From the NCBI RefSeq assembly GCF_010692555.1, contig NZ_JAAHHG010000027.1:1-44598 (forward strand): DNA of 44,598 nt. The letters are read 5' to 3'. This stretch comes from Okeania sp. SIO3B5. GTDB taxonomy: Bacteria > Cyanobacteriota > Cyanobacteriia > Cyanobacteriales > Microcoleaceae. The notes under the pieces were generated by a model that made no database searches, was not told the DNA's origin, and was given only the letters and a program-made list of their open reading frames with translations. Shown here one piece after another: positions 3,764-44,598 of this stretch; position 1 is the first letter of the stretch; every line of letters starts with the position of its first letter. The translations under genes and the position numbers were made by a program.

Positions 3764-3842
3764 ATGCTATCCCAGCAGAAGCTTTCGCCCTGGTTGAAAA
3801 ACTTGTATTATTATCTTGCTATCGCACCGGAAATTTTCCACA

Positions 3843-5258
3843 ATGCGCACTGCCTACCAATATAAATTAAGGCCCAACTCATACCAAATAGCCACAATAG
3901 AATTGTGGTTGGAATTGTTGCGTCGGCAGTATAACTATCGGTTAGGTGAAAGATTCTCATGGTGGTCAGAAAATCGTTGTCCAGTTAACGCCTGCCCCTT
4001 GGTGATGCCCATTCCTCAACTAAGAGATCATCCAGGTTATTACTCTCAAAAACTAGATTTAGTCAATACCAAGGACAAGTTTCCTGAGTATAAGCTAATT
4101 CATTCTCAGGTTTTACAGGATTGTATAAAACGAGTAAAACTTGCCTTTGATAGATGGTTTAAAGCAGACAAAAATGGACAGAAATTAGGAAAACCAAGGT
4201 GTCATTTCAGTTATCAGTTATCAGTTATCAGTTATCAGTTTTTAGCTATCAGTTTTAAGTTATCAGTTTCCAGTACCTCTAGCTGTAGCTTTGGGATTAA
4301 AAATACGGAATATTCTTTTTTTTATCCTCTTAAAAGAGGAGAATTTAGACCACAATTTTTCGGTAAAATAAAAGGACGTTATCGTAGTTTTACTTATCCT
4401 CAAATCAAACTTGACTGCATAGAAGAAAATCAAATTAATTTGCCCAAAATTGGAAAGGTAAAGTTAATTAAGCATCGTCCAATACCAGAAGGTTTTATAA
4501 TTAAAACAGTGACGATTAGTCGTAAAGCAGATGGTTATTATGTAACTTTATCCTTAGAAGATAAATCAGTTCCAGCTTTGACAACTAAAGTTGAACCTAC
4601 ATTAAAAAATACTCTGGGAATTGATATGGGGTTGAAGGAATTCTTAGTAACAAGTGAAGGAGAATCAGTCCCCATCCCTCAATACTATCGAAAATATCAG
4701 AAGCGATTAAAAACTTTGCAAAAACGTTTATCTCGAAATAAAAAAGGAAGTAAAAGGAGGCTCAAGGATATTAAAGCTGTAGCTAAACAACATAAAAAGG
4801 TTGCCGATAAACGTAAAGATTTTCATTTCAAAACAGCAAATGAGTTATTGTCAAAAGCTGAAGTTATTGCCCATGAAAACTTAAACATTAAAGGGCTAGC
4901 AAAGACTCGTTTGAGTAAATCAATTAACGATGCTGGATGGGTCAAATTCTTGTCTATTTTAACTGTCAAAGCCGTTAGCGCAGCTCCTCCGCAGGAGGCA
5001 AATGCTGGACAGAAGACTATAGCAGTAAACCCCAAAAATACCAGCCAAGATTGCTCAAATTGTGGTGAAAAAGTTCCCAAAGAATTAAACATACGAACTC
5101 ATTCCTGCCCACATTGCGGTATTGTAATAGACCGCGACTTGAATGCAGCGATAAATATAAAAAATAGGGCGGTAGGGCATTCCGTCCTGAAAGCTCGTGG
5201 AGTTCGATGCAATGGCAGGGCTACGAAACGAGAAGCCGACACTATAGCGCCAGCTTAG
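3843..5258 (+). CDS. tnpB: IS200/IS605-family TnpB with two in-frame insertions
   Basis: RNA-guided endonuclease of the TnpB family, about 471 residues from the preferred start at 3843 (MRTAYQYKLRPN is the usual TnpB opening; an ATG at 3816 adds nine unrelated residues). RuvC acidic residues are all present: D in GIDMGLKEF, E in AHENLNIKG, D in DRDLNAAINI. The zinc finger CSNCG...CPHCG is intact. Two segments are foreign to the family. One is a stretch of about 50 residues after GQKLGKPR, beginning with heptamer-repeat sequence. The other is eight residues (VSAAPPQE) from a 24-bp palindromic insert. Both keep the frame. Whether the protein is still active is open, because the first insert falls in the region preceding the RuvC core. 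The 3' end should also encode the guide RNA scaffold, as is usual for TnpB. Confidence 0.85.
   Translation: MRTAYQYKLRPNSYQIATIELWLELLRRQYNYRLGERFSWWSENRCPVNACPLVMPIPQLRDHPGYYSQKLDLVNTKDKFPEYKLIHSQVLQDCIKRVKLAFDRWFKADKNGQKLGKPRCHFSYQLSVISYQFLAISFKLSVSSTSSCSFGIKNTEYSFFYPLKRGEFRPQFFGKIKGRYRSFTYPQIKLDCIEENQINLPKIGKVKLIKHRPIPEGFIIKTVTISRKADGYYVTLSLEDKSVPALTTKVEPTLKNTLGIDMGLKEFLVTSEGESVPIPQYYRKYQKRLKTLQKRLSRNKKGSKRRLKDIKAVAKQHKKVADKRKDFHFKTANELLSKAEVIAHENLNIKGLAKTRLSKSINDAGWVKFLSILTVKAVSAAPPQEANAGQKTIAVNPKNTSQDCSNCGEKVPKELNIRTHSCPHCGIVIDRDLNAAINIKNRAVGHSVLKARGVRCNGRATKREADTIAPA
4203..4290 (+). repeat. CAGTTAT heptamer repeat inserted in tnpB
   Basis: Several units of CAGTTAT, some degenerate, followed by CAGTACCTCTAGCTGTAG. 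A closely similar block (TGTCATTTCAGTTATCAGTT, then CAGTACCTCTGCCTG) lies upstream of the Uma2 gene at 17413-17455. The same dispersed repeat therefore occurs once in a gene and once between genes. Inside tnpB it reads SYQLSVISYQ and stays open. Confidence 0.75.
4974..4997 (+). repeat. 24-bp palindromic insert in tnpB
   Basis: A 24-bp segment containing CTCCT-CCGC-AGGAG interrupts what would otherwise read TVKA-ANAGQKTIAVNP. It adds eight codons and keeps the frame. It resembles the small GC-rich palindromic repeats scattered in many cyanobacterial genomes. Confidence 0.6.
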
Positions 5259-23461: not shown

Positions 23462-30061
<6,600 letters not shown>

Positions 30062-32681: not shown

Positions 32682-35264
32682 ATGTCTGAAATAGAATCAG
32701 AAGAAAAATCACAAAATTCACTAGAACGACTTGGTCAAAAAAAGAAACTACTATCAGAATATAAATCTCAATTGAGTCTGGCTAAAACTAGCTTGGGAAA
32801 ATACCAGTCTCTACAGCATGAAACTACTGAAGAAAAGCTAAAATTAACTACTAATCAGCCTACATCAATCAAATTTCGCGATCGTGCAGTAACGAATACT
32901 GTCCCTCTCCAGAAATATACTACTGATGCTCAGAAGTATATTTTACCTAGTGAAAAATATAAAAATAAACTATCTAAATTATCCGGCTGTCATATTGATG
33001 AATATTCATACATCATCAATACAATCACTCCAAAAACGCCGATTAATTTTTTAATATTTGGTGTTGGGAAAGACAGTCATATCTGGATGAATGTCAACAA
33101 ACAGGGAAAGACTGTATTTGTAGAAGATAATCCAGAATGGTTTAAATGGGCAAAAGAAACTTATCTAGGAATGAAAGCTTACCTAGTTAATTATGGTACA
33201 AAAAGGAAAGACTGGCTGAATTTACTAACTCAATATAGTCAGGGAAAAGAATGTCTCTCAATGGTATTACCAGATGAGATTGTGGAAACAAAATGGGACG
33301 TTATTTTTGTGGATGCGCCTGCTGGATATTCAGAAGAAATGCCAGGCAGAATGAAGAGTATATACATAGCTGCCAAACTAGCTTTTGAAGCTCGAAGTAC
33401 AGATGTTTTTGTACATGATTGTCATCGCCAAGTAGAAAATATTTATAGTAGCTATTTTTTCCATCAAAAAAACTTAGTTACCGAAATTCGGAGATTGAGA
33501 CATTATAAAATTATTGGTGGAGAAGATTTATTACATCAAAAATCTATAAAATTCGTAAATAAAGAGCAATATCAGTCAGGAAATATTCAAGTAGAAGTTG
33601 CTGGTGTTGAGTTATTAAAGCCTGTGTCAAGTTTATTACATGGGTGTTATTTAGATAGACCAAAAAAAGGACAAATTTTTCAGCAAAATACAATTAAATT
33701 AGCGGGGTGGGTAGTTGGTAACAATTCTCCGGCTGTAGCAGTAGAAATTATCAGTAATGGTCAAGTAATTCAAACAGCATCTATCAACAAACAACGTTCT
33801 GGTGTAGCAAAGGCTTATCCTCAAGTTGCTCATGCAAAAACAAGTGGTTTTTCCACAGAAATACAAGTAATTAGTTTACCAAAAGAATCTGAATTAACAT
33901 TACAAGCCATACTTAAAGATAAAAGTCGTGTACCTCTAGGTTCTTTAAAGTTACAGTCTAAATATCAAAGTTCGATAGGAGTAATTTATATTGCAACTGG
34001 AGAAAAATTTATTCGTGAAGCTTGTGAATCAGTAGCTAGTTTAAAAGCAAAAATGCCTAATCTACCAGTAACAATTTTTGCTAGTGAAGACATTAAAAAT
34101 TCTAACTTTGACCAAGTAATAGTAATAGAAAAACCAGATTACAATCATGTAGATAAAATCAAATATATGTATGCTTCGCCTTACGATTACACATTATTTC
34201 TAGATACAGATACCTACATATCTGCTAACTTTTCAGAAATATTTACACTCTTAGATAAATTTGATATGGGAGTAGCTCATGCTCCCCTAAATATTAGAGG
34301 TTTTGTTAATGGTGTACCAGAAAGTTTTCAACAGTTAAATACAGGAGTAATCTTATATAAAAAATCTCCTCAACTAGAAAAGTTTTTTGTCAAATGGTTA
34401 GAATTATATAAACCACCTAATGCCGACCAACCTACTTTTAGAGAAGTTTTGTATAACAGTAAACTCAGAATTTCCACTCTTGCCCCAGAATATAACTGTA
34501 GATTTCCTTTTTCTGGAGTTATTTCTGGAACTGTAAAAATACTACATGGAAGGCATAAAAATTTACCATTAGTAGCTGAAAAAATAAATTCAGGAAAAGG
34601 CTTGCGATTTATCAATCCTGAAGAATTTAAACATCTGGAAAAAAATCTCAAGCAATCTACTCAAGTAACTAATAACTCATTGCCAAACTCTAGCCATAAT
34701 AAGTTAGCTAATCTTCAAACAGAAGTTGTCACAAATAATATCAAATCCCCAAAAAATAAATCATCAAGTATCAGAGATACTCCCATGTTAACTCCAGAAG
34801 CTACTAATTTTTTAGAGAATTTTCTCAAACAAAAACCAGATGCTAATGTATTAGAATTTGGCAGTGGTGGCTCTACAATATGGATGTCTAAATTGACTAA
34901 AAAACTTATTTCTATTGAACATGATACTAAGTGGTACAAGAAAGTAAAAGATAATCTTCAGCAAGATGCAACTTGTAATCCTGTAGACTTAAGACTTTTA
35001 TCTAAGCCATATCACACAGTATGTGACAAATTTCCTCAAGAATTTTTCGATTTAATTATTGTTGATGGCCGCGATCGAATGAAATGTTTAGAAGCATCAA
35101 TTAAGGTTTTAAAAAAAGGAGGAATATTAATGGTAGATGATGCGCAAAGAGAAAAGTATAAACCAGCTTATGATTTACTCAAGGATTGGCTAATTACAAA
35201 AACTATGAGTAAACCTAGAGATACTTATTGGTGGCAAAAGCCATTACCAATGGATAATGGATAA
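32682..35264 (+). CDS. DUF579-like MT / SGWV / GT-A / MT four-domain protein
   Basis: Protein of 860 residues. After a short coil, residues about 100-290 resemble the DUF579/glucuronoxylan 4-O-methyltransferase family: FLIFGVGKDSHIW near 124, VFVEDNPEW, then VDAPAGYSEEMPGRMKSIY near 210 and FVHDCHRQVE. An SGWV domain follows (about 315-425: IKLAGWVVGNN). Residues about 430-645 are a GT-A domain with LFLDTDTYIS near 507 and QLNTGVILYKKS, as in GT8/GT77-like enzymes. Residues about 705-860 are a methyltransferase with VLEFGSGGSTIW near 723 and IIVDGRDRMKC near 793. The last codons (MDNG, stop) come from an ATGGATA repeat array, so the natural C-terminus may have been replaced. A CGGAG ribosome site precedes the start. 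Confidence 0.82.
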   Translation: MSEIESEEKSQNSLERLGQKKKLLSEYKSQLSLAKTSLGKYQSLQHETTEEKLKLTTNQPTSIKFRDRAVTNTVPLQKYTTDAQKYILPSEKYKNKLSKLSGCHIDEYSYIINTITPKTPINFLIFGVGKDSHIWMNVNKQGKTVFVEDNPEWFKWAKETYLGMKAYLVNYGTKRKDWLNLLTQYSQGKECLSMVLPDEIVETKWDVIFVDAPAGYSEEMPGRMKSIYIAAKLAFEARSTDVFVHDCHRQVENIYSSYFFHQKNLVTEIRRLRHYKIIGGEDLLHQKSIKFVNKEQYQSGNIQVEVAGVELLKPVSSLLHGCYLDRPKKGQIFQQNTIKLAGWVVGNNSPAVAVEIISNGQVIQTASINKQRSGVAKAYPQVAHAKTSGFSTEIQVISLPKESELTLQAILKDKSRVPLGSLKLQSKYQSSIGVIYIATGEKFIREACESVASLKAKMPNLPVTIFASEDIKNSNFDQVIVIEKPDYNHVDKIKYMYASPYDYTLFLDTDTYISANFSEIFTLLDKFDMGVAHAPLNIRGFVNGVPESFQQLNTGVILYKKSPQLEKFFVKWLELYKPPNADQPTFREVLYNSKLRISTLAPEYNCRFPFSGVISGTVKILHGRHKNLPLVAEKINSGKGLRFINPEEFKHLEKNLKQSTQVTNNSLPNSSHNKLANLQTEVVTNNIKSPKNKSSSIRDTPMLTPEATNFLENFLKQKPDANVLEFGSGGSTIWMSKLTKKLISIEHDTKWYKKVKDNLQQDATCNPVDLRLLSKPYHTVCDKFPQEFFDLIIVDGRDRMKCLEASIKVLKKGGILMVDDAQREKYKPAYDLLKDWLITKTMSKPRDTYWWQKPLPMDNG

Positions 35265-35371
35265 TGGATAATGGATAATGGATAATGGATAATGGATAAT
35301 GGATAATGGATAATTGATAATGGATAATGGATAATGGATAATGGATAATGGATAATGGATAATTGATAATT
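35250..35371. repeat. ATGGATA heptamer array, about 17 units
   Basis: Nearly perfect tandem ATGGATA units, with two carrying TTGATA. The array begins inside the last codons of the 32682 gene and supplies its TAA stop. It is followed by AGGGCTTGCTGATTAAAC, which may be the remnant of a transposon end. No gene lies in 35265-35462. Confidence 0.9.
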
Positions 35372-35462: not shown

Positions 35463-36626
35463 TCAAAAATAAGGAACTATAGCAACAAATGTTTCAGGGG
35501 AAGTTAAATGATTTGTAGTGAAATTCTTATGGATATTCTGTTTGACAGTTTTTGGAGGTATTAAATGGCATTGATAAGCTGAACTAATTTTTATGTGAGT
35601 GATATTGTTATTAGGGCTGTTAATAGATGTAATTTCCCAGTCTATGAGCTTCTTTAAAAGCTTAACTGGAAGACATAACTCATAACAAGAAAGAGCTTCT
35701 TCGGAGTAGCCAAGTTGTTTGAGAGTATCTCCCAAATATTGGTAAATTTTCTTAGATTTTGGGTTAATATTAAGCCCTTGTAAATAGCAATTAATCGCTT
35801 CAGTCCAATTATTTTGCTCGGCAAGAATAAGTCCTAAATTACAATAATCTTCTACTTTTGGCTTCAGTTCAATAGCACAACGGTAAGAAGCAGCAGCTTG
35901 CTCTAAATTCCCTAGTCGCTGGAAAACATTTCCTAAATGACGGTGAAGTAAATCTGTTTTCGGACTAAGTTTTATGGCATACTGATACGATGCTACAGCT
36001 TCCTCCAAATTCCCTAATTTTTGTAGAGTATCTGCCAAATTATGATGAAGTTTAGGTATATTTGGATTCAGTTCTATGACATATCTATATGTAGCAATAG
36101 CCTCTTTTAATCTACCCTGTTTTTTGAAAGCTATTGCTAATTTATAACTATCTCTAAATAAGCATGGATGAAGTTGAATAGCTTTTTGATAGAAAGTAAC
36201 AGCCTCATACCATTTTTTTTGTTGAAATAATACCTCTGCCAAGTTGTAGTAAGGCCAGCTAAAATCTGGGTTCAAGCTTATAGATTCACGAAAAAATGTG
36301 ACTGCCAGATCTAGTAACCCTTTTGTAGCAAATAATTCTCCTAATTTGTTATATGATTGATACATATTAGGATTAATTTTTATAGCAGATTGGAAACAAG
36401 CAACTGCATCATCTCTTAACTTTTTCTCTAGCAATACTTCTCCTAATTTGTGATGGTGCCAAGCAGAGTTATAGTTAAGTTCTATTGCTTGAGTATAAGC
36501 TTTCACAGCTTCATCTAAGCGACCTAATTTTGTTAATACTTTTCCTAATAGGTTTTCAAGAATCTTTACTAATTGATTGGATAAAAGAGAGTGGTTTAAA
36601 TATTGTAGGGAAATATTATGGTTCAT
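35463..36626 (-). pseudogene. TPR protein truncated at both ends (lost GT61 domain)
   Basis: The 387-codon frame holds about eight TPRs (LDEAVKAYTQAIELN and relatives). After the TPRs comes a linker ending HKNFTTNHLTSPETFVAIVP, which aligns with the 884-residue protein's linker just before its GT61 domain (PNFTAPQPSAKNFVVLISKG). Here the frame stops two residues later, so the GT61 module is gone. At the other end, the first roughly 26 residues (MNHNISLQYLNHS and after) are antisense to a methyltransferase remnant, and true TPR sequence begins only at GKVLTKLGRLDEA. The ORF may still be translated as a TPR-only protein. Confidence 0.65.
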
Positions 36627-36796
36627 GGTGTGGGCGCAAATCTTTTACTTATCAAGATTTGCTAATTGTAGAAAAAAAAACTGAATTTAAGTCAAAGTTA
36701 TCTAACTACCAGATGGTCTTAAAAAAATACAAGTCTAAATTAGAAAGAATTAAGATTCAAATTGATGCATCAAAATCTCAAATCAACCAGACTTAA
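36549..36796 (+). pseudogene. C-terminal fragment of a methyltransferase
   Basis: From about 36549 the plus frame reads GFQESLLIDWIKESGLNIVG and then KYYGSWCGRKSF, aligning with the end of the 36830 protein (GFRENLLLQWINERGFNVLE, SYGSWCGRTSSF). It then adds a 35-residue coil to a TAA. The SAM-binding half is missing. Sequence before 36549 is the TPR gene on the other strand, so this is one side of a deletion or recombination junction. Confidence 0.7.
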
Positions 36797-36829: not shown

Positions 36830-38698
36830 ATGAGACAGATAAATCAACCTCACCGACCACAAGAAGTAAAGGCAAAAATTATTTCAATTCATGTACCAAA
36901 AACTGCTGGTACAACATTTAAAAAAGTTTTGAGACAAATATATCATCCAGAAGAGATTTTTTTTGACTATCCTCACAAGGGTGATTTCCGCCATAAAATG
37001 TTAATTAATCCTAAACCAGAAGTAAAAGTAATTCATGGTCATTTTCCTGGCAATAAATATGATTATAAATTTCCAGAATATAGAAAAATTATTTGGCTAA
37101 GAGACCCGATAAAACGGTTAATTTCTCTTTACTTTTTTTGGAAGACTTGGCAAATTTTATTAGAAAGTGATGAACAAAATTTATCACCGATAAAAGAGTC
37201 TAATTTGACATTTATAGAATTCGCCGAAAAACCAGAGATGCAGAATGTAATTAAATCAAAATTTGTTCAAGAGCAAAAATTAACAGAATTTGATTTTGTT
37301 GGGATTCAAGAATTTTTTCTTGAAGATTTACATGAACTAAAATTAATACTAAATTGGCCGGAATATCAGCTTGAAACTCAAAATACCAATCCCTATCCAG
37401 AATATAAGTCATTATTAGAAGAAGTCTTATCTAATCAAGAAATAGTCAATAAAATATCAGTGATAAATCAGGAAGATATAGAACTTTATCGAGAAGCGCT
37501 AAGTTTACGGAAGAACCGGAGAAAAACATCGAAAATACAATATTATACTCAAGAGAATCTCGAAAATTTATCATCTGGAAAACAACAAATTCCCCACAAA
37601 ACAACAAAAACTAATCCTCTACTTACTTGGGGTTCTATTGACCGGGCAGTTATTAAAAATCAAGTGTTGCGGTTGTCTGGTTGGGTTGCCTCTCTTGATG
37701 CTGGTATGGTGGAAGGATTTAAAGTTGTTATTGCTAATCAAGTGTTTAGTTTTTTTGAACAAACTCTCAATATACCCAGTCCAGATGTAGAAAAAGTTCA
37801 TCCTAATTTAGATAGTTCAAGTAATGCTAGATTCCGGCTCAAAATTCTTTTAAATCAACAACAAATCAACCAATTAAAGTATTCATTAATCGCTTTAACT
37901 CCTCAATTTCAACGTGGTGAGGGGATAATTTTATTAAAGGTATTAGCACCACTTTTGCCACTGCCTGAAGAGAAAGATATAAAAATAACTGACATTGATG
38001 GAAGTGGTCAATTTATTCGGAGTTCCTTCAAATTACTAGGAGATTTAATTCAGAGATTAGGTTTAGAACCCAAAGACCATATTCTGGATGTTGGTTGTAA
38101 TATTGGTACTGTTGCTTATGCCTTAGTTCATTATTTACATCCTTCTGGTCGTTATGAAGGTTTTGATATGGTAAAAAATTTGATTTCCTCGGTACAAAAA
38201 GAAATTACAACACGCAAACCTAATTTTAATTTTAACTGGCACAATATTCATCATCCTCTGTATAATCCCACTGGCACAATATTAGCAATTAATTTTACTT
38301 TTCCTTATCCTGATGAAAGTTTTAACTGTGTCTGTATTCCTCATTTATTAACTCATTTACAAGGTCTGGAGGTTATGCACTATCTTGATGAAATACATAG
38401 AGTTTTGAAACCTGGAGGGAGGTGCTTATTAATTTGCTTTTTAATCAACTCGGTATCAGAACAGTTGATGGCTAAAGGCAAGAATTTTCAACAGCTTATT
38501 TATGAAACAGAATATGGTTTTACTAAAGATATTAATTTGCCAGAAAAAGGAATTGGCTTTAGAGAAAATCTACTATTACAGTGGATAAATGAACGAGGGT
38601 TTAATGTTCTAGAAAAGTCTTATGGTTCTTGGTGTGGTCGTACCTCATCTTTTAAAGAAGATTTGTTGATTTTGGAAAAAAAAATAGACTTCTTGTAG
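36830..38698 (+). CDS. Sulfotransferase / SGWV / methyltransferase fusion
   Basis: Protein of 622 residues. Residues about 10-225 are a Sulfotransfer_2-type sulfotransferase: the PAPS 5'-phosphosulfate loop SIHVPKTAGTTFKKVL near 19-34, HGHFPGNKYDY, and the 3'-phosphate motif WLRDPIKRLISLY near 90. The SGWV domain (about 262-380) reads LRLSGWVASLDAG, then PSPDVEKVHPNL. The methyltransferase (about 395-622) has ILDVGCNIGTVAYAL near 418 and RVLKPGGRCLLI near 525. The protein should sulfate and methylate one glycan. The substrate is unknown, although Sulfotransfer_2 members act on polysaccharides and glycolipids. Lies 33 bases after the methyltransferase remnant. Confidence 0.83.
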   Translation: MRQINQPHRPQEVKAKIISIHVPKTAGTTFKKVLRQIYHPEEIFFDYPHKGDFRHKMLINPKPEVKVIHGHFPGNKYDYKFPEYRKIIWLRDPIKRLISLYFFWKTWQILLESDEQNLSPIKESNLTFIEFAEKPEMQNVIKSKFVQEQKLTEFDFVGIQEFFLEDLHELKLILNWPEYQLETQNTNPYPEYKSLLEEVLSNQEIVNKISVINQEDIELYREALSLRKNRRKTSKIQYYTQENLENLSSGKQQIPHKTTKTNPLLTWGSIDRAVIKNQVLRLSGWVASLDAGMVEGFKVVIANQVFSFFEQTLNIPSPDVEKVHPNLDSSSNARFRLKILLNQQQINQLKYSLIALTPQFQRGEGIILLKVLAPLLPLPEEKDIKITDIDGSGQFIRSSFKLLGDLIQRLGLEPKDHILDVGCNIGTVAYALVHYLHPSGRYEGFDMVKNLISSVQKEITTRKPNFNFNWHNIHHPLYNPTGTILAINFTFPYPDESFNCVCIPHLLTHLQGLEVMHYLDEIHRVLKPGGRCLLICFLINSVSEQLMAKGKNFQQLIYETEYGFTKDINLPEKGIGFRENLLLQWINERGFNVLEKSYGSWCGRTSSFKEDLLILEKKIDFL

Positions 38699-40589: not shown

Positions 40590-42141
40590 ATAACACGGGA
40601 GCATGAAAGCCATCGTCTTTTAAGCGATGGATGAAAGGCGAGTTGTCGGATTTTAATCCGAAGTATTTTATTTTACTGAAAAGCAACGTTGAAGCTCCCC
40701 CGTTTTTGAACCGGGACATGAAAACAAGGGAGTTGTTTGGATTAGACAATTTTAGTTGTCCTCTGTTACTATGATTGACAATAAGTTTTCGTTCCGCCCG
40801 TTTAAAATGTACTATTGTCAGCAAGTTTTAGTAGGTAAAAATCCTGAATTAATTTCTATCTTAAAATTCTTGTGTGAACAGTCTCACAAGCTAACTAATA
40901 TGGGAATATATTATGCCAGACAATTATATTTTAAGTCTTACAAAACTCTGGGTAAGTATGACTTGGAAAAAGTCTACAAAAAGAACAATCACTATAAAGT
41001 TTTATATTCGCTCTTCAGCACAACAAATATTGAGAACCGTAGCTGAATCATTTAGGTCTTACTATGGTCTTATAATTGCCTATAGTGAAGGAAAAATCTC
41101 AGACAGACCAAGTATTCCTAACTATAGAAAAAAAGGGGGAATGGCTACAGTTAGTTACCCCAAGCAAGCATTAAAACTCAAAGGTAATCAAATTAGAGTA
41201 CCATTAGGCAATACCTGTAAACGCTGGTTTGGTCTAGATAGCTTTTTAATTCCAATGCCGAGTATAAGAGAATTTTCATCTCTGAAAGAACTGAGAATAT
41301 TACCCAGAAATAGATGTTTTACCCAAGAATTTGTCTATGAAAAAGAAGTGGTAATTAAACCTCAATTAAACCAAGGCAATGTATTAGGAATAGACCATGG
41401 TGTAAATAATTGGTTGACCTGTGTATCTAATGTAAATACAAGCTTAATTGTAGATGGTAAACATCTCAAATCAATGAATCGTTGGTACAACAAACAAGTA
41501 TCAACTATTAAAGAAAATAAACCGACTGGATTTTGGTCAAATAAACTAGCTGCCATTACAGAAAAGCGTAACCGCCAAATCCGTGACGGTATAAATAAAG
41601 CAGCTAGAATCGTAATTAATCATTGTTTAAAAAAATCTATTGGTACAATTGTATTTGGTTGGAATAAAGGTCAGAAAAATCAAATAGAATTAGGAAAAAA
41701 AAATAATTCAGAATTTGTACCAATTCCCACAGCTAGACTCAAAGAAAGAATAGCTCAATTATGTGAAGAGTATGGGATTATATTTATAGAAACTGAGGAA
41801 AGTTATACAAGTATTGCTTCATTTTTAGATGGTGACGATCTGCCTATTTATGGTGAAAAACCCGATGATTGGAAACCATCACCGAAAAGAATAAAGCGTG
41901 GTTTGTATAGAACAGGTAATAATTGGTGCGTGAATGCAGACTGTAATGGGGCTGCAAATATAATTGCAAAAGTAAGCAGAAAGCTAAGTTTAGACTTAAG
42001 CCGACTGTGTAGGGGCACCGCGGAAATTGTCCCCAGAGAGTGCATCTTTGGTCAGCTAAGAAAAAACGGAGCAACATGGATTTATCCTGTTGCGTAGTAT
42101 CTGCTTAGAATCCCCTTGGCAACAGCTGCGGGGAGTAGTCA
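40590..42141 (+). mobile_element. Third type of tnpB element, ends approximate
   Basis: The left region has CCATCG (40610-40615)/CGATGG (40625-40630) followed by ATGAAAGGC, and a second stem CGGAT-TTTA-ATCCG near 40650. The right end has GAATCCCC...GGGGAGTAGTCAAT near 42109-42141. It begins directly after copy B, so two different elements lie back to back. Confidence 0.6.
40771..42097 (+). pseudogene. tnpB: TnpB-family gene with a one-base frameshift
   Basis: The first frame from the ATG at 40771 (MIDNKFSFRPFKMYYCQQ) runs to KNNHYKVLYS. The next frame continues with SSAQQILRTVAESFRSYYGL to the stop at 42097. The join near 41015 needs removal of a single C, so one extra base probably broke the gene. 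This is a third TnpB subfamily: RuvC D in GIDHGVNNW, E in IETEESYTS, D in NADCNGAANII, with no CxxC...CxxC finger of the usual spacing. The shorter second frame alone (from 40913) lacks the N-terminal domain. Confidence 0.75.
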
Positions 42142-42171: not shown

Positions 42172-44598
42172 ATGGAAAAAGTTGAAATAGTACAGAAAAC
42201 AAACACACAACTAGCAGCAACTACTGGATTTTTAGACCAAGTAGCAATAGAAAATGAAACTGTTTGTTTAAGTGGATGGGTTCTCTCTTTCGAGCCTGAG
42301 TCTGTCACTAATTTTAAGGTTTTATTTGGCAGTCAACAATTAGTAGGATTTGAATTAACTCAAGGTCTTCCTAGCCCTGGAGTGAAAAAAGCACATCCAA
42401 ATATTTCTGCTGCTAATAATGCTCGGTTTATTATTAGACTGCCAATGAATAAACAGCAGCAACAACAATTTAAAGATGCTCTGATTATTTTAATTCCTCT
42501 TGTGGCTGACCGTGAAGGAGAACCTTTATTAAATGCTGTTAATCCGGCTTTATCTAGTTTAGTTCAAACACCAGAAGCAAATAATTTACCAACTCAAACT
42601 CCTCAAGTAGAACTTATTTCTGTTCATGTGCCAAAAGCAGCCGGAACAGCTTTCAGACAGGTTTTATTGCAGGTTTATGGAACTCAAGGAGTTCTGACAG
42701 ATAAAACTAATATGTTTGAAGATAATATGCCAGCTACTATTCATTGGCAGGCTAAAGTTATTGAGGGTCATTTTCGCGCGGGTAAGTACGATCAATTATT
42801 TCCTCAGGCTAAGAGAATTACATGGTTAAGAGAACCTATCCACAGATTAATTTCTGATTATTGTTTTCGCCACATATCGAATCCTACAAAAGATTATCTA
42901 AATAAAGAAGGTTTACTGAAGTTTGTTCAAGGCAACAGTAATCTTATGGCTTATTGTGTGAATGGTAAATCTCTGGATTATTTTGATTTTGTCGGAATTA
43001 CAGAATATTTTGAGGAGGATTTACTGGCACTCAAAAATCTTCTTGATTGGTCAGATTATCAAGTTATTTACCAAAACAGAAATCCTTATCCAGAATATCT
43101 TGACTTTCGGAAAGAGGTTTTATCAGACAAAAAATTAATGGATGAATTGGCAAATGCTAATAGTCAAGATATGGAACTTTATGCAGCAGCTTTAAAAAGA
43201 AGAATTCAAAATTCAAAAGTCAAAAGTCAAAAGTCAAAAGTTAGAAGTGAACAGGAAAGGAAAATTCAAAAGTCAAAATTCAAAAGTCAAAAGTTAGAAG
43301 TTGGAAGTGAACAAGAAGTTAGAAGTGAGGAGGAAGGCAAAAGTGGAATTGATTTACCTGAAAAAAATGTAGTTGATTTGCAACCATATACAGTGCCAGA
43401 AAAAACAAAAATATTAGCAACGTTGGGTTCTCTGGATAAGGTAGAATTTGACCGCGAAGAATTATTACTAATAGGTTGGGTAGTTTCTCGTAATTTAGGA
43501 GCAGTAAAAAGCTTTCAATTAACTATTGCAAATACTGAAATAGAAAATTTTGAAACTGCCTTAGATTTACCAAGCCCAGATGTGAGGAAATTACACCCCA
43601 ATCTTAATCATTCTGACAAAGCAAGATTTCGTCTCAAGGCATTTCTTAACACAGAACAAATTTCACAATTCCAAAATGCTGAGATTGCTTTAACTCCTAT
43701 ATTTAAAGATGGTAAAGGTCAGGTTTTGTCTAAAGTATTAGATAATCCCAAACAAATAACTTTAGTTAGAAGTGAACAGGAAAAAATCAAAAGTCAAAAG
43801 TCAAAAGTTAGAAGTGAACAGGAAGTTAGAAGTGAGGAGGAAGGCAAAAGTGGAATTGATTTACCAGAAAAAAATGTAGTTGATTTAGAACCATATACAG
43901 TGTCAGAAAAAACAAAATTATTAGCAACATTGGGTTCTCTGGATAAGGTAGAATTTGACCGTCAAGAATTATTACTAATAGGTTGGGTAGTTTCTCGTAA
44001 TTTAGGAACAGTAAAAAGTTTTAAATTAACTATTGCAGATACTGAAATAGAAAATTTTGAAACTGCCTTAAATTTACCAAGTCCAGATGTGAGGAAATTA
44101 CATCCCAATCTTCATAATTCTGACAAAGCAAGATTTCTTATCAAGGTATTTCTTAAACCAGAACAAGTTTCACAATTCCAAAATGCTGAGATTGCTTTAA
44201 CTCCTATATTTAAAGATGGCAAAGGTCAGGTTTTGTCTAAAGTAAAAGAAGGAAGAGGGAAGAAGCGGTGCGACCCCGCGTCGGCGTCAGACGCAAGGGA
44301 ATGCGCACCAAGAGAGGAAGAAGGAAGAAGTAATGAAGTCAGAAGTGAACAAGAAGTTAGAGGTGAGGAGGAAAAAGTCAAAAGTCAAAAGTCAAAAGTT
44401 AGAAGTGAACAAGAAGTTAGAAGTGAGGAAGAAGGCAAAAGTGGAATTGATTTACCAGAAAAAAATTTAGTTGATTTAGAACCATATACAGTGTCAGAAA
44501 AAACAAAATTATTAGCAACATTGGGTTCTCTGGATAAGGTAGAATTTGACCGTCAAGAATTATTACTAATAGGTTGGGTAGTTTCTCGTAATTTAGGA
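42172..44598 (+). CDS. Sulfotransferase with repeated SGWV domains, runs off window
   Basis: Open for 809 codons from the ATG at 42172 to the window edge without a stop. SGWV domain 1 covers about 20-130 (VCLSGWVLSFEPE, PSPGVKKAHPN). A Sulfotransfer_2-type domain covers about 145-340: SVHVPKAAGTAFRQVL near 151, GHFRAGKYDQLF, WLREPIHRLISDY near 220. A repeat linker (SKVKSQKSKVRSEQE) leads to SGWV domains 2, 3 and the start of 4 (LLLIGWVVSRNLG near 433, 602, 799), each preceded by the same linker type. Domains 2-4 are nearly identical at DNA level. The sulfotransferase is related to that at 36830, but the domain order is swapped. C-terminal domains beyond the edge are unknown. Confidence 0.82.
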   Translation, partial: MEKVEIVQKTNTQLAATTGFLDQVAIENETVCLSGWVLSFEPESVTNFKVLFGSQQLVGFELTQGLPSPGVKKAHPNISAANNARFIIRLPMNKQQQQQFKDALIILIPLVADREGEPLLNAVNPALSSLVQTPEANNLPTQTPQVELISVHVPKAAGTAFRQVLLQVYGTQGVLTDKTNMFEDNMPATIHWQAKVIEGHFRAGKYDQLFPQAKRITWLREPIHRLISDYCFRHISNPTKDYLNKEGLLKFVQGNSNLMAYCVNGKSLDYFDFVGITEYFEEDLLALKNLLDWSDYQVIYQNRNPYPEYLDFRKEVLSDKKLMDELANANSQDMELYAAALKRRIQNSKVKSQKSKVRSEQERKIQKSKFKSQKLEVGSEQEVRSEEEGKSGIDLPEKNVVDLQPYTVPEKTKILATLGSLDKVEFDREELLLIGWVVSRNLGAVKSFQLTIANTEIENFETALDLPSPDVRKLHPNLNHSDKARFRLKAFLNTEQISQFQNAEIALTPIFKDGKGQVLSKVLDNPKQITLVRSEQEKIKSQKSKVRSEQEVRSEEEGKSGIDLPEKNVVDLEPYTVSEKTKLLATLGSLDKVEFDRQELLLIGWVVSRNLGTVKSFKLTIADTEIENFETALNLPSPDVRKLHPNLHNSDKARFLIKVFLKPEQVSQFQNAEIALTPIFKDGKGQVLSKVKEGRGKKRCDPASASDARECAPREEEGRSNEVRSEQEVRGEEEKVKSQKSKVRSEQEVRSEEEGKSGIDLPEKNLVDLEPYTVSEKTKLLATLGSLDKVEFDRQELLLIGWVVSRNLG
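43205..44460 (+). repeat. Tandem duplications of SGWV domain plus heptamer linkers
   Basis: The marker GGCAAAAGTGGAATTGATTT occurs at 43336, 43843 and 44434, giving periods of 507 bp (169 codons) and 591 bp (197 codons). Each period contains one SGWV domain and one AAAAGTC-type linker. The extra length of the second period comes from a GC-rich insert near 44265-44311. Confidence 0.85.
44265..44311 (+). repeat. GC-rich palindromic insert inside the coding linker
   Basis: GGTGCG and CGCACC bound a GC-rich segment holding GCGTCGGCGTCAGACGC in otherwise very AT-rich coding DNA. It reads through as KKRCDPASASDARECAPREE without breaking the frame. It resembles the small palindromic repeats at 4974 and at 40487. 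Confidence 0.65.

Follow-up and report, generated by a model that had tools for sequence, protein, structure and literature searches.

The gene that begins at position 42172 of the DNA analysed here (the window, 44,598 nucleotides of Okeania sp. SIO3B5; C190:1-44598, from an 11.06-Mb genome in 789 contigs) contains a real in-frame domain array, the number of its domains has changed within the genus, and the gene is prone to repeat change. It is probably a modular glycan enzyme whose Ig-like spacer became an in-frame array of at least three units on heptamer linkers. According to this proposal, the Ig-like spacer between the sulfotransferase and the methyltransferase would have grown into a tandem array, the units of which consist of a linker, a 27-codon front and the domain (507 or 591 bp). 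The linkers would consist for the most part of STRR-type heptamers of cyanobacteria (CAAAAGT, GGAAGAA and related units), with a dispersed hairpin repeat contributing in one case. An early duplication presumably took place before the sister species separated, the second domain was probably lost in the sisters, and the lineage of the window may have undergone further duplication or homogenisation via recombination between the units of about 400 bp. The array itself is a putative spacer that could set reach or flexibility between the enzyme modules.

The multi-module gene and its tandem domains

The modules of the 42172 gene are arranged in the order Ig, sulfotransferase, Ig (three or more), Ig, methyltransferase and GT2, that is, Ig-like domains are located N-terminal to the sulfotransferase and also between the sulfotransferase and the methyltransferase. 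The sulfotransferase module matches the Pfam profile Sulfotransfer_2 (PF03567) with 34 bits against a gathering cut-off of 22, and Pfam finds a methyltransferase and a GT2 glycosyltransferase in the part of the gene beyond the assembly gap at the window end. The open reading frame continues past this gap in the same frame, as compared relative to the 127-mer shared by both flanks, and reaches a stop at C190:49046. The product is therefore a predicted modular glycan-modifying enzyme, composed of a sulfotransferase, a methyltransferase and a GT2 glycosyltransferase with Ig-like domains between or beside them. The named relatives belong to Okeania, Trichodesmium and other Microcoleaceae. Literature searches, aimed at the heptamers, the repeats and the genera and not at the gene, gave no paper on it. 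The features of the gene, with one domain of a neighbour for comparison, are as follows.

42172-44598, forward strand: open reading frame of the multi-module enzyme, ATG at 42172, open to the window end and into the assembly gap
42217-42555, forward strand: N-terminal Ig-like (SGWV) domain, HMM match
42601-43182, forward strand: sulfotransferase module (Sulfotransfer_2, PF03567), protein residues 144-337, E 4.3e-8
43183-43335, forward strand: linker L0, mostly heptamers (CAAAAGT x4 at 43214-43241 and variants)
43336-43773, forward strand: unit c1, 27-codon front and Ig-like domain (domain 43417-43773)
43774-43842, forward strand: linker L1 (CAAAAGT x3 at 43788-43808)
43843-44250, forward strand: unit c2 (domain 43924-44250)
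44251-44433, forward strand: linker L2, GGAAGAA-type heptamers, hairpin element and CAAAAGT x3 at 44379-44399
44265-44309, forward strand: GC-rich dispersed 45-base hairpin repeat in L2, translated in frame, RNA fold z -2.9
44434-44598, forward strand: unit c3, first 165 bases only
44472-44598, forward strand: sequence X of 127 bases, repeated in c2 (43881-44007) and beyond the 100-N gap (C190:44699)
37625-37975, forward strand: lone Ig-like domain of the neighbouring sulfotransferase-methyltransferase gene 36830-38698

Three tandem units, each made of a front of 27 codons followed by a domain about 110-120 aa long with a predicted fold, and each preceded by a CAAAAGT-heptamer linker, start in frame at 43336, 43843 and 44434. 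These starts confirm the tandem copies, the heptamer linkers and the periods of 507 and 591 bp given by the original prediction; that both periods are multiples of 3, which it also pointed out, is true but required by an open frame anyway. The second period is longer because of linker L2. The peptide SKVKSQKSKV expected from the repeats was found as well, since the perfect CAAAAGT arrays at 43214-43241, 43788-43808 and 44379-44399 read SKVKSQKSKV, KIKSQKSKV and KVKSQKSKV, respectively. Other claims stood only in part. What is duplicated was said to be an SGWV domain, and the domain is indeed in tandem, but the tandem copies read IGWV, SGWV being found in the N- and C-terminal relatives, and the window contains just two complete copies. 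Repeats were said to flank each copy; all three copies do have an array ahead of them, but there is none behind the last one, c4, which lies on the other side of the gap. Neither the N- nor the C-terminal Ig-like domain is directly bordered by a CAAAAGT array. The near-identity claimed for the DNA of the copies applies to c2 and c3 (1/165 bases differ in the part of c3 inside the window), but c1 and c2 differ at 24/402 bases, c1 and c4 at 20/364 and c2 and c4 at 11/364, so that these copies differ by 3-6%.

Modelled from 42 aligned copies, the repeated domain is predicted as a β-sandwich with a confident pLDDT of 88.8. In VIA-align comparisons with the PDB the best Z was 8.5 (FlaF/FlaG), followed by obscurin-titin Ig (8.0) and antibody constant domains (7.5-7.9). 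The modelled domain thus appears to resemble Ig-like domains only at the level of a common fold (Z 8.5 and below), and the antibody and FlaF matches were rejected as its identity for the same reason. None of the Foldseek matches to the model reached E 0.001, and no family of Pfam or NCBIfam covers the domain. A Pfam match of 8 residues (E 0.41) and the single match by sequence to a solved structure (E 0.77) were both taken as chance.

Neighbouring genes tested against Pfam include sulfotransferases, methyltransferases, glycosyltransferases and TPR proteins; consequently, judged by these families, the region is likely to be a surface-glycan locus. In addition, 74 bases separate the 42172 gene from a TnpB-like (OrfB_IS605) gene upstream of it (40913-42097), and three further tested open reading frames of the window match the same Pfam families as this TnpB-like gene. 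A 103-aa open reading frame at 36485-36796 resembles the tail of the neighbouring methyltransferase (YGSWCGR...) and is possibly a decayed copy of it; it has no Pfam match at E 0.01. Beyond the window, the methyltransferase motif of the 42172 gene (L021:3598-3640, at C190:45.6 kb) reads EIGCRVGN in the window species, whereas the eight relatives matched by pattern have G in place of the R. Because of this substitution, the SAM-binding loop of the enzyme may be altered.

The assembly gap and the number of domains

The sequence after position 44598 is a run of exactly 100 N, at which copy 3 is cut, and the 127 bases before the gap match exactly the 127 bases after it. Three other 100-N gaps in the regions of this genome that were covered, on C1, C4 and C22 (L093, 2596-2695; L097, 4717-4816; L104, 4418-4517), each show a flank overlap of 127 bases, so that the overlap is found in 4/4 distinct gaps measured; these regions had been chosen around heptamer arrays, so that each of the three gaps has such arrays within a few kb. 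The same overlap is present at a gap in the sister genome G003 (L065) and in Okeania sp. SIO3I5 (L024), where an N run breaks the open reading frame of the same gene in another repeat tract. A 10-N gap in a Trichodesmium record (L029) has no flank overlap, and the overlap of 0 in L033 arises because it holds merely 62 bases right of the C190 gap. The recurrence of the overlap at other gaps of the genome indicates that the window gap is a k=127 assembly-graph repeat. We infer that the 127-base overlaps result from a de Bruijn assembly with k=127, in which the assembler could not count the loop c2-c3-c2. Since the 127-mer is common to c2 and c3, a graph loop of 591 bp results, which could contain more copies. 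Relative to the 127-mer, the two flanks of the gap share one frame; taken most simply, c3 and c4 would therefore be parts of a single copy and the array would have three, although more are possible. Accordingly, the middle array has at least three copies in the window species, and the assembly itself cannot give the count. This is also a warning, because the assembled gene is broken at the array and its domain number is not readable from this assembly.

In contrast to the three or more copies of the window species, the middle array has one copy in 4/4 other species of the genus (L022, L026, L028 and L030, that is, G002, G004, G003 and G001), the genus set being five genomes including the window species, one per species. 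Each of these four sisters has three Ig-like domains in the gene (the N-terminal, one middle and the C-terminal domain). Among wider relatives, three were counted in L024 and L025, four in L027 and L029, and four before the contig end in L023; an extra methyltransferase-like segment is seen by eye among the domains of L023, L027 and L029. The contig of L031 ends just after the sulfotransferase, and L032 matches the sulfotransferase only. Therefore, domain number is not fixed. Across the family the domain occurs at E 1e-6 or better in 24/59 genomes, and in the genus g3 a single domain match was found in 9/10 genomes, the frame being 364-396 aa long.

In each of the four sisters the middle domain is followed by an apparent relic, namely a linker and a second front (GIDLPEKNVVDLEPYTVPEKTK or AIDLPEKN...). 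The second front of the sisters (IDLPEKNVVDLEPYTVPEKTK) passes almost directly into a TFSEAPI-like sequence, whereas in the last copy of the window species and in the outgroup L025 the domain's own tail (VLDN..Q) precedes that sequence. The simplest account is an early second copy, the domain of which was deleted in the sisters. The deletion spans 340 bases, as measured on the window copy, and its junction, inspected by eye, has about 2 bases of microhomology and no heptamer. Moreover, unit number differs among the five species in two other repeat tracts of the gene: pattern counts in the window species, L022, L026, L028 and L030 are 4/4/2/2/2 for 38-aa units and 10/6/7/7/4 for ..FS units.

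Age and constraint of the copies

Over 109 codons, mean dS is 0.079 among the window copies, 0.181 between window and sister copies and 0.166 among the sisters, and dS among the window copies was lower than that to the sisters in 200/200 codon bootstrap replicates. The lower dS indicates that duplication or homogenisation of the window copies postdates the split of the species. The corresponding dN/dS ratios are 0.61, 0.24 and 0.17, with the ratio among window copies exceeding that among sisters in 200/200 replicates, and the window copies, judged from this ratio of 0.61, seem to be under weaker constraint. Dating the duplication by raw identity was rejected, because the copy-copy (93.3-95.7%) and copy-sister (91.7-94.5%) ranges of DNA identity overlap; hence only dS points to recency. 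Dating by the domain tree was rejected as well, since the nodes placing the window copies have a support of only 63-70. In this tree the three window copies are not grouped and c2 falls among the sister copies, which counts against the proposal, although it would fit an old duplication followed by homogenisation. The concatenated tree has poor resolution within the genus (support 44, 60 and 90); L024 is absent from the sulfotransferase, glycosyltransferase and concatenated trees, as the segment patterns had no match in it, and the methyltransferase segments of L022 and L027 are longer than the rest. Mosaic structure or gene conversion among the copies is not claimed, because private sites can explain the differences with three full sequences. 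That c2 and c4 show no differences inside X is suggestive, but identity is the very criterion by which X was delimited, and no claim is based on it.

Heptamer linkers and competing explanations

With 534 genomic occurrences of the 21-mer made of three CAAAAGT heptamers, against 0 of its reversed control, the arrays are not due to chance. The same 21-mer is found 96, 165, 94 and 84 times in the sister genomes G001-G004. These sequences have the properties of STRR repeats, namely 7-bp units in tandem arrays (CAAAAGT x3-x4) and many dispersed arrays that are mostly intergenic: elsewhere in the genome, 33/34 heptamer arrays lie outside any open reading frame of at least 80 aa (20 sampled regions, taken in listing order and not at random). 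In the window, all 10 perfect CAAAAGT arrays are inside genes (two genes). The repeat reads KSQKSKV in all three forward frames, and its reverse strand contains a stop. What the heptamers clearly contribute is thus a linker that is stop-free in all three forward frames, and because they give a charged, stop-free peptide in each of these frames, they would be tolerated as linkers. Heptamer-like linkers between modules recur in 5/5 species of the genus. As to the hairpin repeat of L2, its 19-base core has 27 matches in the genome at up to 1 mismatch; the corresponding linker is without it in L030 and has a longer version in L022, L026 and L028.

The proposal of a spacer grown into an array has to be weighed against other explanations. 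An assembly artefact, in which strain variants or a mis-joined repeat mimic a tandem array, is very improbable: the window end does coincide with a k=127 repeat node and 100 N, and Ig arrays are known to be miscounted by short-read assemblies (the available part of PMC6868369), but according to the same text short reads gave too few, not too many, Ig repeats; moreover, c1, c2 and c3 are contiguous without N, c1, c2 and c4 are mutually distinct (24, 11 and 20 pairwise differences) with different linkers, and both gap flanks keep the same frame. It is also unlikely, if less so, that the array is actively unstable, with domain number varying between cells of one culture via unequal crossing over at heptamers. 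Array and linker lengths differ between sister species, and the 591-bp loop could hold further copies; however, copies that differ by 3-6% do not support the "actively" duplicating gene of the original prediction. The heptamers had been proposed as natural crossover sites, and as breakpoints they were not seen at the two inferable junctions, both judged by eye. The sister deletion lies outside heptamers, with its short microhomology, and the junction from the tail of c1 to linker L1 has only one side in the heptamer linker. The unit of about 400 bp, in which uninterrupted identity extends over up to 127 bases, would be a longer recombination substrate than a heptamer array of 21-28 bp. The fixed domain number and strongly diverged copies in all relatives, which would have spoken against the prediction altogether, were not found, as the count is at least three against one and the copies are not strongly diverged.

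A weightier competitor, to which we give somewhat less than an even chance, is a neutral origin: the linkers would be genomic STRR repeats inserted neutrally, and the additional domains would stem from a transient neutral duplication that has no function. A repeat that is outside open reading frames of at least 80 aa in 33/34 sampled arrays is a general genomic repeat, and the dN/dS raised to 0.61 among the copies points in the same direction, but the copies remain in frame with dN/dS below 1, heptamer-like linkers stand between modules throughout the genus, and every perfect array of the window is inside a gene. The spacer proposal could also be carried much further: heptamer arrays, stop-free and independent of the frame, would be ready-made linkers with which Okeania and its Trichodesmium relatives shuffle and multiply domains in giant glycan enzymes, domain number changing fast and reversibly and tuning the surface polysaccharide within populations. 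This extension is unlikely. If domain number did vary within a culture, a cyanobacterial genome repeat would be linked to surface-glycan variation.

Intragenic domain arrays and STRR linkers are already known, and it is the enzyme carrying them that is unusual. STRR repeats are usually 7 bp long and their function is given as not known in the excerpt available of PMC2670836, and Trichodesmium genomes are described as repeat-rich (excerpts of PMC9950141). For TAACTGA repeats, the accessible portion of MacGregor 2015 (PMC4679880) reports their presence inside hypothetical proteins of some cyanobacteria and suggests that arrays in the stop-coding forward orientation are perhaps tolerated between subunits of modular proteins. 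As described in that portion, the repeats resemble those analysed here in that they form 7-bp arrays, many per genome and mostly intergenic, and are stop-free in one orientation, then encoding one heptapeptide; they differ in that the unit here is CAAAAGT, the peptide is KSQKSKV, and the arrays connect the duplicate copies of a folded domain within a large enzyme. The part of PMC6868369 at hand describes YrIlm of Yersinia ruckeri, a surface adhesin with more than 20 DNA-identical tandem Ig-like domains, and SasG, the repeat number of which varies within a colony, and states that Ig arrays are undercounted by short reads. In-frame tandem domains, variable number and unreliable short-read assembly are common to these proteins and the present array. 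However, unlike YrIlm as described there, the array belongs to a predicted biosynthetic enzyme and has at least three copies that differ by up to 6% and heptamer linkers, and unlike the within-colony variation of SasG, the difference is seen only between species, with one genome each. Carbohydrate sulfotransferases of the Sulfotransfer_2 family (PF03567) share the catalytic module, which is above the Pfam cut-off, but here it is fused to Ig-like domains, a methyltransferase and a GT2 glycosyltransferase. The gene is of value in that the growth and loss of a domain array can be counted here in a single gene across five sister species, the relic of the loss included, and in that STRR-type heptamers join folded modules within a predicted enzyme.

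Heptamer arrays were also observed in other genes of the window. A TPR/glycosyltransferase gene at 23462-30061 contains seven CAAAAGT x3-x4 arrays in coding orientation, together with tandem units of 93 bp and 57 bp inside its open frame. A TCAGTTA array (the reverse of TAACTGA) at 4207-4268 lies in frame in a TnpB-like gene at 3816-5258 (SYQLSVISYQ...). Furthermore, an AATGGAT array of about 17 copies at 35249-35370 begins in the last codons of the gene at 32682-35264 and continues downstream of it.
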